From the NCBI GenBank assembly GCA_016927905.1, contig JAFGLW010000016.1:92379-156378 (forward strand): DNA of 64,000 bases. The letters run 5' to 3'. Source of the DNA: a candidate division CSSED10-310 bacterium (GTDB taxonomy: Bacteria > CSSED10-310 > JAFGJC01). The position numbers and the translations under genes are program-made. Position 1 is the stretch's first letter; every line of letters starts with the position of its first letter. The notes beneath the pieces are model-generated. The model was not told the origin of the DNA. It worked only from the letters and a program-made list of their open reading frames with translations, and searched no databases. Below, piece by piece: positions 10,022 through 14,965 of the stretch.

Positions 10022-11233
10022 TCAGTCGCGCAGTTTCTCCAGCAGATTGAAAAGGTCCAGCACATGAGGCGGGCATCCGGGAATCCAGCAGCCTTTCCGG
10101 CGTTTCGCCCGGTCGTAAAACTGGAATTCGCTGGCACAATTACCGAACAGGATCAAATTCCCTTCCCATTCATCGAGCGTCTGTTCGTTGCACATCGGTC
10201 TTCCGGATACGATAGTGGAGACTGGATATAGTTTTAAATCCGATTCAAAAGCCAGCTTGTCAAGGCTATGGCGGATGGCCGAAAGGCATCCATTGCAAAC
10301 TCCGCATTCGATGCATCGAAATCCCGGAAACTGGCCGGCACTGGACAAAACGGGTCGTTTGAACCGGCGCTTTAAAAGATCCTTTTCAGGACCGATGACA
10401 TTGACGGGATGGTCGACACCGTTCCAGATGCGTTCCCGTGCGATCATGAGATGGGGAATTTCGCTGATGGAAAAACCCATCCACTCAGCGACCGTGCTGT
10501 CGAGGGCGATCATATCCGTGCTGACCGCCAGGCCATTGTAATCCCGGATTGAAACACCATGAAACGGTGCCTGCCCCTCCATGGCCCATAGCCCATCGAT
10601 GATGTTCAAATCAGGTACCCTCACCTGCGCCAGATCCACTATTTTCTCAGCGATATCATTGCGGTGAAACAGCATCCGCTGATCATCGTGAATGATACCC
10701 AAAAGATTCTTGATGGACAGGGATATGCAGGTGAGCATATGGGTTTTCCATTTGGGCAGATTGATGAAAACACCCGCCTCCATTACCGGTTTTGCCACTC
10801 GAATGTTCCGGTACAGCCGGCCTGCGGGATTCGGTATATCCACCCATTCTCCATCGTCGAAAAAAAACGTTTTGAATCCGCGTTTTTTAAGCAGAGCCGT
10901 CAAACCCGAGATCTCGAAAGCCTCCCGGGCCGGGTATTCAAATCCCGGATTCTCTCCAACACCCACTTCGCGCGCGCCGAAATCGCTGCATAACTCCGCT
11001 ATCGCAATCACCACCCGGGGATCGGTGGAACTGGCTGGGATCAACCGGGGATTGGGACGGACCAGGTTGGGTTTCAGAATCACTGTCGATCCCCGGATAT
11101 CTGCGGTCTGATATGAAATCGCTTCCAAGCTCCCGGCAATTTCCTCCTTGATCCTGCTGATATCGGATTCGGGGCAGTTGAGGGGTGAACCTGTCAGGTT
11201 GGAAACCTTATTCAGGTATACGCTGTTCATCAT
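10022..11233 (-). CDS. DUF362 domain-containing protein, Cys-rich C-terminus
   Basis: STVILKPNLVRPNPR...SSTDPRVVIAIAELCSDFGAREVGVGENPG; LPKWKTHMLTCISLSIKNLLGII; Cys-rich FRCIECGVCNGC. Confidence 0.82.
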   Translation of the reverse strand: MMNSVYLNKVSNLTGSPLNCPESDISRIKEEIAGSLEAISYQTADIRGSTVILKPNLVRPNPRLIPASSTDPRVVIAIAELCSDFGAREVGVGENPGFEYPAREAFEISGLTALLKKRGFKTFFFDDGEWVDIPNPAGRLYRNIRVAKPVMEAGVFINLPKWKTHMLTCISLSIKNLLGIIHDDQRMLFHRNDIAEKIVDLAQVRVPDLNIIDGLWAMEGQAPFHGVSIRDYNGLAVSTDMIALDSTVAEWMGFSISEIPHLMIARERIWNGVDHPVNVIGPEKDLLKRRFKRPVLSSAGQFPGFRCIECGVCNGCLSAIRHSLDKLAFESDLKLYPVSTIVSGRPMCNEQTLDEWEGNLILFGNCASEFQFYDRAKRRKGCWIPGCPPHVLDLFNLLEKLRD

Positions 11234-12038
11234 CCGCCTCCTTTCCCTGTTTCACATCCCGGAGGTAAGGTCTCAACCGGTTGATTTTTAAAACCATTTC
11301 ACGGTATTGTTCGAAATCAAGCGATTGCAGACCATCACACAGGGCTTTCTGCGGATTGGGATGAATCTCCACGATCAATCCATCGGCTCCCGCCATCAAG
11401 GCAGCCAGAGCCATTGGAATGATGATATCACTTCTTCCACATGAATGGCTCGGATCGACGATGATCGGAAGCGGTGATAATTTTTTGACGATGGGCACGG
11501 CGGACAGGTCCAGGGTGCTGCGTGTGTACTTTTCGAACGTCCGGATACCCCGTTCGCATAAAATGACGTGCGGGTTGCCACCGGATGTCAGATATTCGGC
11601 TGCCAGCAGCAGCTCTTCGATGGTTGCGGCAATCCCGCGTTTGAGAAGGATCGGTTTTCCCGCTTTCGCCAGCTGTTTGAGAAACTGGAAATTGCTCATG
11701 TTCCGAGCGCCGATCTGGAGAATATCCACCGTATCGGCATACAAATCGAGATGGGCGATATCCACGATCTCCGTGACAATCTTAAGACCAAACTCCTTCT
11801 TGGCCATTCCCAGGAGCCGGATACCCTCTTCCTGCAATCCTTGAAAACTGTATGGACTGGTCCTGGGTTTAAACGCTCCCCCTCTTAAAAACCGATACCC
11901 CGCCCGGCGCACTTCACCCGCAGCCGCAAAAAGCTGCTCCTCACTTTCCACGCTGCACGGGCCGGCGATGAGCAGTAAATCTTCCCGTGTAACAGTTATG
12001 TCCGGAAGTTTCAGAATGGGTTTCATCGCCGATTTCAA
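11208..12038 (-). CDS. aroF: 3-deoxy-7-phosphoheptulonate synthase (AroF/KDPS-like type)
   Basis: LLLIAGPCSVESEEQL; FLRGGAFKPRTSPYSFQGL; ILQIGARNMSNFQFL; PIIVDPSHSCGRSD; IVEIHPNPQKALCDG. No N-terminal ferredoxin-like regulatory domain. Confidence 0.93.
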   Translation of the reverse strand: MKSAMKPILKLPDITVTREDLLLIAGPCSVESEEQLFAAAGEVRRAGYRFLRGGAFKPRTSPYSFQGLQEEGIRLLGMAKKEFGLKIVTEIVDIAHLDLYADTVDILQIGARNMSNFQFLKQLAKAGKPILLKRGIAATIEELLLAAEYLTSGGNPHVILCERGIRTFEKYTRSTLDLSAVPIVKKLSPLPIIVDPSHSCGRSDIIIPMALAALMAGADGLIVEIHPNPQKALCDGLQSLDFEQYREMVLKINRLRPYLRDVKQGKEADDEQRIPE

Positions 12039-12050
12039 TATTCATCTCCC

Positions 12051-13811
12051 CTACAGGTACTGTTCGATGGATAGAATGGCATGAAAAATCTCTTCAATGA
12101 TGGAATCATGAAGCGGTCCCGGATTGAACTCCAGAAGACGCTGCAGGGTTTCCTGAATCTGCTCGGGATGAAATGTCTTCTCGTTCGTTCTGCGGTGAAG
12201 ATCCATGACGACTTTAAACCGTTCATTGAGAAGGTGCAGAATCTTCAGGTCGATCGACTCGATTCTGCGTTGCATTGAGGCAGCCAAGTCGGATTTGTCC
12301 GACAACGATGTCCCGGTCAGGATCTTCCGGTCAACCTTGCCGCCTGAAGTTCGCGGCAGATCCGACATGAATCGGATGATCCGGGGCTGGCGTGCGCGGG
12401 AAAGCTTGCTTCCCAGATACTGCCGGAGCTGCGGTTCGGTCAGTGTTTCTCCCGGTTCAATGACAACGGCTGCCATCGGCACGACACCTCTCAATCGATC
12501 TTCGTACGGGATCACCACGGCGTCCCGGACCAGAGGATGTGAAAAAAGAACAGCCTCAATCTCGGCAGGATACACTTTTATCCCCCCGACTTTGATCATG
12601 GCATCCGTGCGCCCGACACAGGTATAGTTGCCATGCGCATCGCGGCGGAACAAATCGCCTGTACACAGCCATCCATCCTTCATAACCCGGGCGGTCTCTT
12701 CGTCCGCACGCCAGTAGGAAAGCATTATACCCGGGCTGCGGATCCATAATTCTCCAACTTCCCCATCAGGAACCGGTTCCCCTGCGGCATCCGTCAATTT
12801 CGTTTCATAATAGGGAATCACCTGACCGACCGATCCCGGAGGGGTATTCCCGCCTGATTTCGACGCGAAAGCTATCCCCATCGTCTCGGTGCTGCCCCAC
12901 ACCGGAACAATGGCTGCACCCATTTCCGCCTGGAATCTCTCCTGCAGCCATTGGGGTGTTGCCATGCCGCCGCTTTCCGGTATTCTCAGAGAACTGAAAT
13001 CAAAGGTTTCGCATTGGCCGAATGGCAGGAGAAGTTCATAAACCGGCGATACGGCCATCACACATGTCACCCGGTGTTCATGAATCGCCCTGGCAATCGA
13101 TCGGGGATAGAGCTGCTCGATCAAAACGACGGTTCCACCCAGCATCAAGGCCCGGCAGAATATCTCGTGAGGGTGAAGCATGACGGCAAACAGGGGGAGA
13201 TGGATGTCGGTCGAATCGATGTTCAGCGCCAGAGCGGAAGCCATCGTATTGTAAAACAGATTCCGATGCGAGGCCACAGCCGCCTTGACTTGACCCGTGC
13301 TCCCCGAAGTGAAATTCAGATAGACCGGATCGTCCGGTTCGCTCGCGGCCGCTACAGCATTCTCACCGGATGTGTCCGTTGACAGCATATCCATCGATAC
13401 CGCCAGGATCCATTCACCCGGATCCGATCGGCCGATCTGATTCTCGAGATCGGTGTGAAACAGGGTGGCTGCCGGTTTGATCAGGAACCGCATCCCGGCT
13501 ATTTCCGTATCGGACGCCTTGAAATTCAAAGGCACTGCCAATGCTCCGACACGGGCCACCGCCAGGAAGGCTGCTATCAATTCCGGGCGCCGCTGCATGG
13601 CAATAAAAACACGATCACCCGGTTTGATTCCCCTGCGATGCAGTTCAAAAGCCAGATTGTCCACCATCCGCTTCAGATCGATATACCGGATGCGGCGATC
13701 CTTGTAGATAATTGCCGTCTTCCCGCCAATCCGCTGAGCCTGGTAATCCAACTGCCGGTCCAGCGGAATCGGAATATCCCGATAATCACTGTGGATCTGG
13801 AATTGTTCCAT
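12051..13811 (-). CDS. AMP-dependent acyl/aryl-CoA ligase fused to a C-terminal AroQ-type chorismate mutase-like domain
   Basis: Ligase motifs: YLNFTSGSTGQVKAAVASH, VWGSTETMGIAF, LCTGDLFRRDAHGNYTCVGRTDAMIKVGGIKVYPAEIEAVL, LPRTSGGKVDRKIL. The last ~76 aa, MQRRIESIDLKILHLLNERFKVVMDLHRRTNEKTFHPEQIQETLQRLLEFNPGPLHDSIIEEIFHAIL, follow the AroQ pattern (IDxxDxxILxLLNER...L..NpGPL....I..IF..I). Confidence 0.85.
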   Translation of the reverse strand: MEQFQIHSDYRDIPIPLDRQLDYQAQRIGGKTAIIYKDRRIRYIDLKRMVDNLAFELHRRGIKPGDRVFIAMQRRPELIAAFLAVARVGALAVPLNFKASDTEIAGMRFLIKPAATLFHTDLENQIGRSDPGEWILAVSMDMLSTDTSGENAVAAASEPDDPVYLNFTSGSTGQVKAAVASHRNLFYNTMASALALNIDSTDIHLPLFAVMLHPHEIFCRALMLGGTVVLIEQLYPRSIARAIHEHRVTCVMAVSPVYELLLPFGQCETFDFSSLRIPESGGMATPQWLQERFQAEMGAAIVPVWGSTETMGIAFASKSGGNTPPGSVGQVIPYYETKLTDAAGEPVPDGEVGELWIRSPGIMLSYWRADEETARVMKDGWLCTGDLFRRDAHGNYTCVGRTDAMIKVGGIKVYPAEIEAVLFSHPLVRDAVVIPYEDRLRGVVPMAAVVIEPGETLTEPQLRQYLGSKLSRARQPRIIRFMSDLPRTSGGKVDRKILTGTSLSDKSDLAASMQRRIESIDLKILHLLNERFKVVMDLHRRTNEKTFHPEQIQETLQRLLEFNPGPLHDSIIEEIFHAILSIEQYL

Positions 13812-13828
13812 GTTTCACTCACCCGATC

Positions 13829-14965
13829 TTATTGAGTCAGCCCGTACTGCTCCAGTTCGGCCCGCGCCCGCTCGAAACCGTCTTCAGCGACCTGGTTCGC
13901 CACCCACTCCGTCAGCTCATCGATACCATCTTCAAACTGGACCGACGGCTCATATCCCAGCATATCCCGGATTTTCGCAATATCTGCATAGCAATGCCTG
14001 ATGTCCCCCTCCCTGAAAGTGTTTTCTATCCGGGGTGTCATTGGATGGCCCGCTCCCAACCTCCGGATCAGAATCTCGGCGACATGTTTTATCGTGATGT
14101 TTCGACCGGTACCGACATTGAATGCAGTATAATCGGCCGCCTGGTTTTCCATGGCGAGGATATTGGCCTGAACGATATCCGACACATGAACGAAATCCCG
14201 ACTTTGCAGGCCATCCTCAAAGATGACAGGCGGTTTTTTATTCAAGACGCGGGAGGAAAATATCGCCGCAACACCGGTGTAAGGATTCGATAAAGCCTGC
14301 CGGGTACCGTAAATATTGAAATATCTCAGGGCCACCGTGGGAATCCGGTAGCTTTTCCCCGTGACCAGGAACATCTCCTCATGATCCCGCTTGGTGATCG
14401 CATAGATCGATGTGGGAAACAGCGGTTTCGACTCGGGGGTCCCCTTGTGCCGGCTGGGAGCTTTGCATTCCGGGCACATGATATCCCATTGTTTCGCTTC
14501 CAACTGACGATTTGGCCGGAGTTTCGGGGTGAAATCGCCGCAGTTGTCGCAGGTGTACAAACCCTCCCCATAAATGGACATTGAAGACGCCACGACAACC
14601 TTGCGCACCCGGTCACGGATTTTTCTGTTGTTGATCAGGATATCGAGAAGTGTTGCACCACCGGTGGAATTATAATCGACATATTTCCGGATCATGTACA
14701 TCGATTGACCGACACCGACCGCCGCACCCTGATGAAAAATGACATCCTTCCCCTCCATGGCCCGGGTCAGAACATCTGCATCCCGCACATCCCCACAGAT
14801 AAACCGGGCTCCCCTGTTGAGATAATCCGGTAGACGACCTTGATGCACCTGATATTCGAGGTTATCAAAAATCGTGACATCATGACCCATTTCAACCAGT
14901 CGGTCGACCAGGTGCGACCCGACAAATCCGGCTCCGCCGGTAACAAGAATAGACTCCCGTTTCAA
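13829..14965 (-). CDS. NAD-dependent epimerase/dehydratase (extended SDR) with CxxC...CxxC insertion
   Basis: ILVTGGAGFVGSHLVDRLVEMGHDV; SSMSIYGEG; TSIYAITKRDHEEM; ALRYFNIYGTRQALSNPYTGVAAIF; RDFVHVSDIVQA. Confidence 0.92.
   Translation of the reverse strand: MKRESILVTGGAGFVGSHLVDRLVEMGHDVTIFDNLEYQVHQGRLPDYLNRGARFICGDVRDADVLTRAMEGKDVIFHQGAAVGVGQSMYMIRKYVDYNSTGGATLLDILINNRKIRDRVRKVVVASSMSIYGEGLYTCDNCGDFTPKLRPNRQLEAKQWDIMCPECKAPSRHKGTPESKPLFPTSIYAITKRDHEEMFLVTGKSYRIPTVALRYFNIYGTRQALSNPYTGVAAIFSSRVLNKKPPVIFEDGLQSRDFVHVSDIVQANILAMENQAADYTAFNVGTGRNITIKHVAEILIRRLGAGHPMTPRIENTFREGDIRHCYADIAKIRDMLGYEPSVQFEDGIDELTEWVANQVAEDGFERARAELEQYGLTQ

Follow-up and report, generated by a model that had tools for sequence, protein, structure and literature searches.

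An adenylating ligase with an AroQ-like tail

What is an AroQ-like chorismate mutase domain doing at the end of an AMP-forming ligase? The question is raised by a gene in the window, by which we mean the whole 64,000-nucleotide stretch of a candidate division CSSED10-310 genome analyzed here. A single open reading frame on the reverse strand (12051-13811) encodes a 586-aa protein consisting of an AMP-forming ligase and a C-terminal AroQ-like (pseudo-chorismate mutase) domain. An initial annotation, made from the sequence, had described one uninterrupted frame of this length with a complete adenylating ligase and a chorismate mutase (CM)-like tail at 12054-12281, and each of these points was confirmed. 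The ligase matched the Pfam AMP-binding (adenylation) domain (PF00501, E 2.2e-69; residues 22-367, positions 12711-13748, reverse strand) and the AMP-binding_C domain (PF13193, E 2e-14; residues 417-492, positions 12336-12563, reverse strand), the latter with the catalytic A10 lysine K492, and its core motifs were all present. The match to CM_2 (PF01817; residues 515-581, positions 12069-12269, reverse strand) fell inside the tail. The initial annotation had proposed an HMM search as a check of the tail, and both scores obtained were above the Pfam cut-off of 27 bits: 39.3 bits for the whole fusion protein (E 7.5e-10) and 45.2 bits for its last 74 residues alone (E 1.1e-11).

The ligase part was modeled well by AF2. 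Its Foldseek neighbours were anthranilate-, feruloyl-, benzoate- and 4-coumarate-CoA ligase and MatB, with E values of about 1e-46 to 1e-42, and in NCBIfam it fell under the curated cut-off for all of the best 25 models listed. It is an adenylate-forming ligase, probably of the aryl- or acyl-CoA type. The initial annotation suggested that it may activate an acid derived from the shikimate pathway.

The fusion recurs in three lineages

The initial annotation was aware of no fusion of a ligase to AroQ and proposed a search for the same architecture in other genomes. We found it in 11 of them, so that the fusion is present in 12 genomes: six of the eight from the window's phylum (G000-G005) and three from each of two families outside it, f38 and f151. 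The other five proteins of the phylum are 41-59% identical to the window protein. A profile of the six tails from the phylum, run against 384 genomes sampled across the domain, identified the f38 fusions (G040, G184 and G318) and the f151 fusion of G153, whose tail scored 26.8 bits against CM_2, just below the 27-bit cut-off; scanning again around G153 brought in G290 and G384. The core motifs of the ligase are intact in the window, in its phylum and in f38, and the A10 position is a lysine throughout the phylum and f38. The f151 ligase is degenerate in the P-loop and in the A8 region, and its A10 lysine is replaced by arginine. The f151 ligase-CM proteins (L094, L129 and L130) look like double pseudoenzymes, encoded by a gene that overlaps the gene for DAHP synthase (DAHPS).

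Because the architecture is repeated in 11 other genomes and no conserved start codon stands at the CM boundary, the fusion frame is no accident, and the fusion of a ligase with an AroQ-like domain is real. A chance fusion, or one created by a sequencing or assembly error, was ruled out by the presence of the same architecture in 12 genomes. An internal start yielding a separate CM protein is unlikely, as a methionine just before the domain occurs only in the window and has no ribosome-binding site upstream.

In a tree of CM domains, all 12 fusions fell on one side of a branch (88/91). Their ligases also share an HPHE motif in the acid-pocket region (residues 213-216, positions 13164-13175 on the reverse strand of the window), which is invariant in 12 of 12 fusions across the three lineages and absent from the two ligases that were readable among six plasmid-record sequences chosen as outgroups. 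The branch and the shared motif make a single origin of the fusions plausible.

The remaining CM frames in the 384-genome scan were mostly about 355-410 aa, those read being fusions of CM to prephenate dehydratase (CM-PDT), or about 100 aa. Other long CM-matching frames occurred in G172, G155, G280 and G314. The two that were resolved, as far as they were read, are no ligase fusions: G172 has a CM-PDT behind a long open frame, and in G155 the CM precedes an aminotransferase-like domain. Queried with the full-length protein, the GTDB contigs gave no more than one ligase of 26% identity, which came from a Clostridia MAG and had no coverage of the CM domain. The matches listed from plasmid records, at less than 35% identity, were confined to ordinary ligases and to adenylation domains of NRPS and PKS. 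In line with the initial annotation, we found no ligase-CM fusion described in the open-access literature searched.

Most mutase active-site residues are missing from the tail

Reference AroQ domains keep R11, R28, K39, R51 and E52 (E. coli numbering) in 26 of 26 cases. The window tail keeps the equivalent of R28; the equivalents of R11, K39, D48, R51 and E52 are Q, T, H, Q and I, respectively, and Q88 is absent. Across the ten fusions compared, R28 is the only catalytic position kept in all, K39 is kept in none, and Q88 has no aligned residue in nine. E52 is replaced by Ile or Val in all six fusions of the window's phylum, where R11 is also mostly lost. The f38 fusions keep R11, R28 and R51, with E52 kept in two of the three, and the f151 tail has almost no active site left. 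Since all ten fusions are without K39, those of the window's phylum are also without E52, and the region of Q88 is missing, the tail is unlikely to be a working chorismate mutase. The f38 tails, which keep three of the arginines, could bind a ligand, and catalysis appears much less likely for the tails of the window's phylum than for those of f38.

Conservation in the fusion tails lies in the scaffold, namely IDLKILHLLNER, F.P and FN.GPLHD. AF2 predicted tail helices at residues 508-541, 549-562 and 570-581. Because AF2 confidence in the CM region was low (pLDDT only about 40-51), assignment of the fold rests on homology, and it is the HMM match and the three-helix pattern, rather than the AF2 model, that support an AroQ fold. 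Of the AroQ chorismate mutase pattern noted in the initial annotation, the family and scaffold stood, and the catalytic residues, mostly gone, did not. The accompanying suggestion that the tail ties ligase activity to chorismate or prephenate levels is weakened, since the ligand-binding residues are mostly gone as well.

In the PDB, the CM profile was closest to the CM domains of CM-DAHPS enzymes (5gmu, 2d8d, 5j6f and 3nvt; E 7e-10 to 3e-7). Despite these matches, NCBIfam slightly favoured the model for the CM of prephenate dehydratase (41.6 bits) over the CM-DAHPS models (37.7 and 35.1 bits) for the tail, and descent from a CM-DAHPS enzyme is therefore not established.

The fusion gene is linked to a DAHP synthase gene

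DAHP synthase is the first enzyme of the aromatic pathway. The gene for a barrel-only type I-beta DAHP synthase of 276 aa (11208-12038, reverse strand), with a TTG start and a GGGGAG ribosome-binding-like site, begins 12 bp past the stop codon of the fusion in the window; the initial annotation had overlooked this neighbour. This enzyme matched TIGR01361 with 359.9 bits (cut-off 267.75) and is without a regulatory domain; the closest PDB chains include 1zco (262 aa, the best match) and 3pg8 (272 aa). A short DAHP synthase (PF00793) is encoded directly downstream of the fusion in nine of the 12 genomes (G000-G005, G153, G290 and G384), and the two genes are thus linked. In the three f151 genomes, start and stop codons overlap as ATGA, the usual sign of translational coupling. 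In f38, the fusion adjoins galU and not a DAHP synthase gene. In the f38 genomes G040 and G184, a barrel-only DAHP synthase is encoded away from the fusion, and G318 has one partial PF00793 match and a second PF00793 match.

The CM tail and DAHP synthase are separate open reading frames, with stop codons between them in every junction read. The fusion and DAHP synthase share a reading frame in five of the six genomes of the window's phylum. We considered whether stop-codon read-through could join CM and DAHP synthase and rejected it, as the stops differ, several junctions have a second stop, and the two genes are out of frame in G002 and G153.

The order ligase-CM, DAHPS, DUF362 was found in G000-G005, including G005, whose neighbourhood is otherwise different. 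The third gene of this conserved set encodes a DUF362 (PF04015) protein (10022-11233, reverse strand), for which a LarA-like fold (nickel-pincer lactate racemase superfamily) is predicted and in which a CGVC.GC motif is conserved in most members. Upstream of the fusion, G000-G004 encode an NAD-dependent sugar epimerase (13829-14965 in the window), which has an inserted CxxC...CxxC segment with weak zinc-ribbon Pfam matches.

Prephenate-using enzymes were not found in the fusion genomes tested

No prephenate dehydratase turned up in the ten fusion genomes tested, which represent all three lineages, no prephenate dehydrogenase in the six fusion genomes of the window's phylum, and no CM_1 in that phylum's eight genomes. 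In seven of the eight (G000-G006), none of the three was found. The 14 control genomes have both prephenate dehydratase and prephenate dehydrogenase, and so does G007, which belongs to the window's phylum and is without the fusion. The tail is the only CM_2 match above the cut-off in most genomes of the phylum. Some of the genomes searched are incomplete (60-98%), but assembly gaps are hard to invoke as an explanation because the same negative result came from all ten genomes across three lineages. In these little-known bacterial lineages, the usual phenylalanine and tyrosine pathway seems to have been lost, and failure to find the enzymes that use prephenate is a further reason to consider chorismate mutase activity of the tail unlikely. 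The branch can be lost without the fusion being present: G006, also from the window's phylum, is without prephenate dehydratase, TyrA and CM and without the fusion.

Five of the six fusion genomes in the window's phylum yielded a chorismate synthase, whose gene in G000 and G002 adjoins one read by eye as aroB. G005 (96% complete; L037) has the ligase-CM / DAHPS / DUF362 set, and chorismate synthase was not found in it. The genome with a stand-alone ordinary CM, G007, has matches to DAHP synthase and prephenate dehydratase in one 651-aa frame (L047/L107, G007:C30), an apparent DAHPS-PDT fusion.

A proposed regulatory role and its alternatives

We propose that the adenylating ligase with its pseudo-chorismate mutase tail acts in trans on DAHP synthase, as its regulatory or docking subunit, and we put the probability of this at about 0.5. 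A ligase would have gained a catalytically dead AroQ domain, and this tail would serve as a docking or allosteric module that contacts the neighbouring barrel-only DAHP synthase. The regulatory domain that is covalent in the DAHP synthase of Bacillus and Listeria would then be supplied in trans on a ligase, and the ligase would supply the signal, such that entry to the shikimate pathway responds to the acid that the ligase binds or activates. The contact between tail and DAHP synthase, the direction of control, and the substrate or ligand of the ligase are what we infer; the adjacent barrel-only DAHP synthase is what points to control of shikimate-pathway entry instead of regulation of the ligase. 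When ligand binds to the CM-DAHPS enzymes of Listeria, Bacillus and Geobacillus, their N-terminal CM domain closes over the barrel of DAHP synthase, with Phe46 of the Listeria CM domain among the CM-DAHPS contacts (PMC5526877). M. tuberculosis has a weak CM that operates together with DAHP synthase in trans (PMC7762937). The position matching Listeria Phe46 is F547 in the window protein, and it is Phe in nine of the ten fusions. Chorismate and prephenate are unlikely to be the ligands that inhibit DAHP synthase through the tail, because the residues that bind them are largely lost.

Several points count against the proposed role, among them the low AF2 confidence in the CM region and the slightly better NCBIfam score of the tail to the CM of prephenate dehydratase. 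Barrel-only DAHP synthases can work unregulated, and the best match of the window enzyme is the 262-aa 1zco; in addition, the f38 fusion adjoins galU instead of a partner DAHP synthase. A non-catalytic role is supported by the f151 fusion, whose ligase is degenerate in the P-loop, A8 and A10 and whose gene still overlaps that of DAHP synthase. A more specific form of the proposal, which we hold tentatively and rate at somewhat under an even chance, is that a ligand-sensing ligase, through its pseudo-chorismate mutase tail, serves DAHP synthase in trans as an allosteric subunit in lineages that have lost the prephenate branch, and that the f151 ligase is a pseudoenzyme with the regulatory role alone left.

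The tail could instead be a leftover AroQ fold that serves an ordinary acyl- or aryl-CoA ligase as a dimerisation or stability module, in which case linkage to DAHP synthase would reflect a shared aromatic pathway and not contact. Such a role would suit a domain that is by nature an intertwined dimer (PMC10520331), and it agrees with the intact ligase motifs of the window's phylum and f38 and with a DAHP synthase that is not adjacent in f38. The f151 ligase, however, is degenerate and yet the ATGA overlap is kept, meaning that the linkage persists where ligase catalysis seems to be gone, and we regard the leftover module as rather unlikely. We are more doubtful still of an active tail, a chorismate mutase whose unusual site would be turned on by DAHP synthase, as happens in M. 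tuberculosis, and which would send prephenate to an unknown branch. The M. tuberculosis enzyme, MtCM, does have Arg for the conserved Lys and no residue equivalent to Gln88, and it reaches high activity only together with DAHP synthase (PMC7762937). The residues kept in f38 (R11, R28 and R51, and E52 in two of three) and the status of the tail as sole above-cut-off CM_2 match in most genomes of the window's phylum would also fit an active mutase, but in that phylum E52 is Ile or Val and R11 is mostly lost, the f151 site is almost gone, and prephenate dehydratase and dehydrogenase were not found in the fusion genomes tested (10 and 6, respectively).

The least probable of the readings, and a highly unlikely one, is that the ligase activates arylacetates, which a 2-oxoacid:ferredoxin oxidoreductase would convert to arylpyruvates, replacing the prephenate route to phenylalanine and tyrosine, and that the pseudo-CM tail lets this salvage restrain DAHP synthase. 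An arylacetate route occurs in anaerobes. Aryl-CoA ligases (anthranilate-, feruloyl-, benzoate- and 4-coumarate-CoA ligase) are among the Foldseek neighbours, and the failure to find prephenate-consuming enzymes in the fusion genomes tested is as such salvage would predict, but plain auxotrophy for phenylalanine and tyrosine would likewise account for the missing genes.

If the fusion is indeed a trans-acting subunit of DAHP synthase, a pseudo-chorismate mutase on a ligase, with a separate gene for a barrel-only DAHP synthase, would be a new way of gating entry to the shikimate pathway, with inter-enzyme control exerted by a different enzyme class. It would also show the fate of the chorismate mutase fold after prephenate has gone out of use in a lineage. 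The fusion also flags bacterial lineages with an unexplained supply of phenylalanine and tyrosine.

Comparison with known systems

The CM-DAHPS enzymes (B. subtilis AroA(G), Listeria 3nvt and Geobacillus 5j6f; PRK12595) show the same pairing of an AroQ-like domain with a TIGR01361 DAHP synthase, and theirs are the closest PDB CM domains to the profile of the fusion tail. In the fusion, however, the CM domain is on a ligase whose gene is separate from that of DAHP synthase, and the tail has lost ligand-binding residues that CM-DAHPS domains keep (PMC5526877). The AroQ-delta MtCM of M. tuberculosis is likewise an impaired AroQ domain with a shortened C-terminus, and its gene is separate from that of DAHP synthase (PMC7762937). 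MtCM is a stand-alone chain that binds its DAHP synthase, whereas the fusion tail is carried on a ligase, has a type I-beta barrel (TIGR01361) as its candidate partner, and has lost far more of its active site.

With the AMP-forming aryl- and acyl-CoA ligases (benzoate-, feruloyl- and 4-coumarate-CoA ligase, MenE and MatB), the window ligase shares a complete adenylation fold and the core motifs, and it differs from them by the extra AroQ-like tail and by HPHE in the acid-pocket region. Known partners of AroQ in fusions are PDT, PDH and CDT (in the exported CM-CDT), all of them prephenate users (PMC10520331), and AroQ is also known fused to DAHPS (PMC5526877). As in CM-PDT, CM-PDH and CM-CDT, AroQ is joined here to a second domain; what differs is that this domain is a ligase and that the mutase site has been lost.
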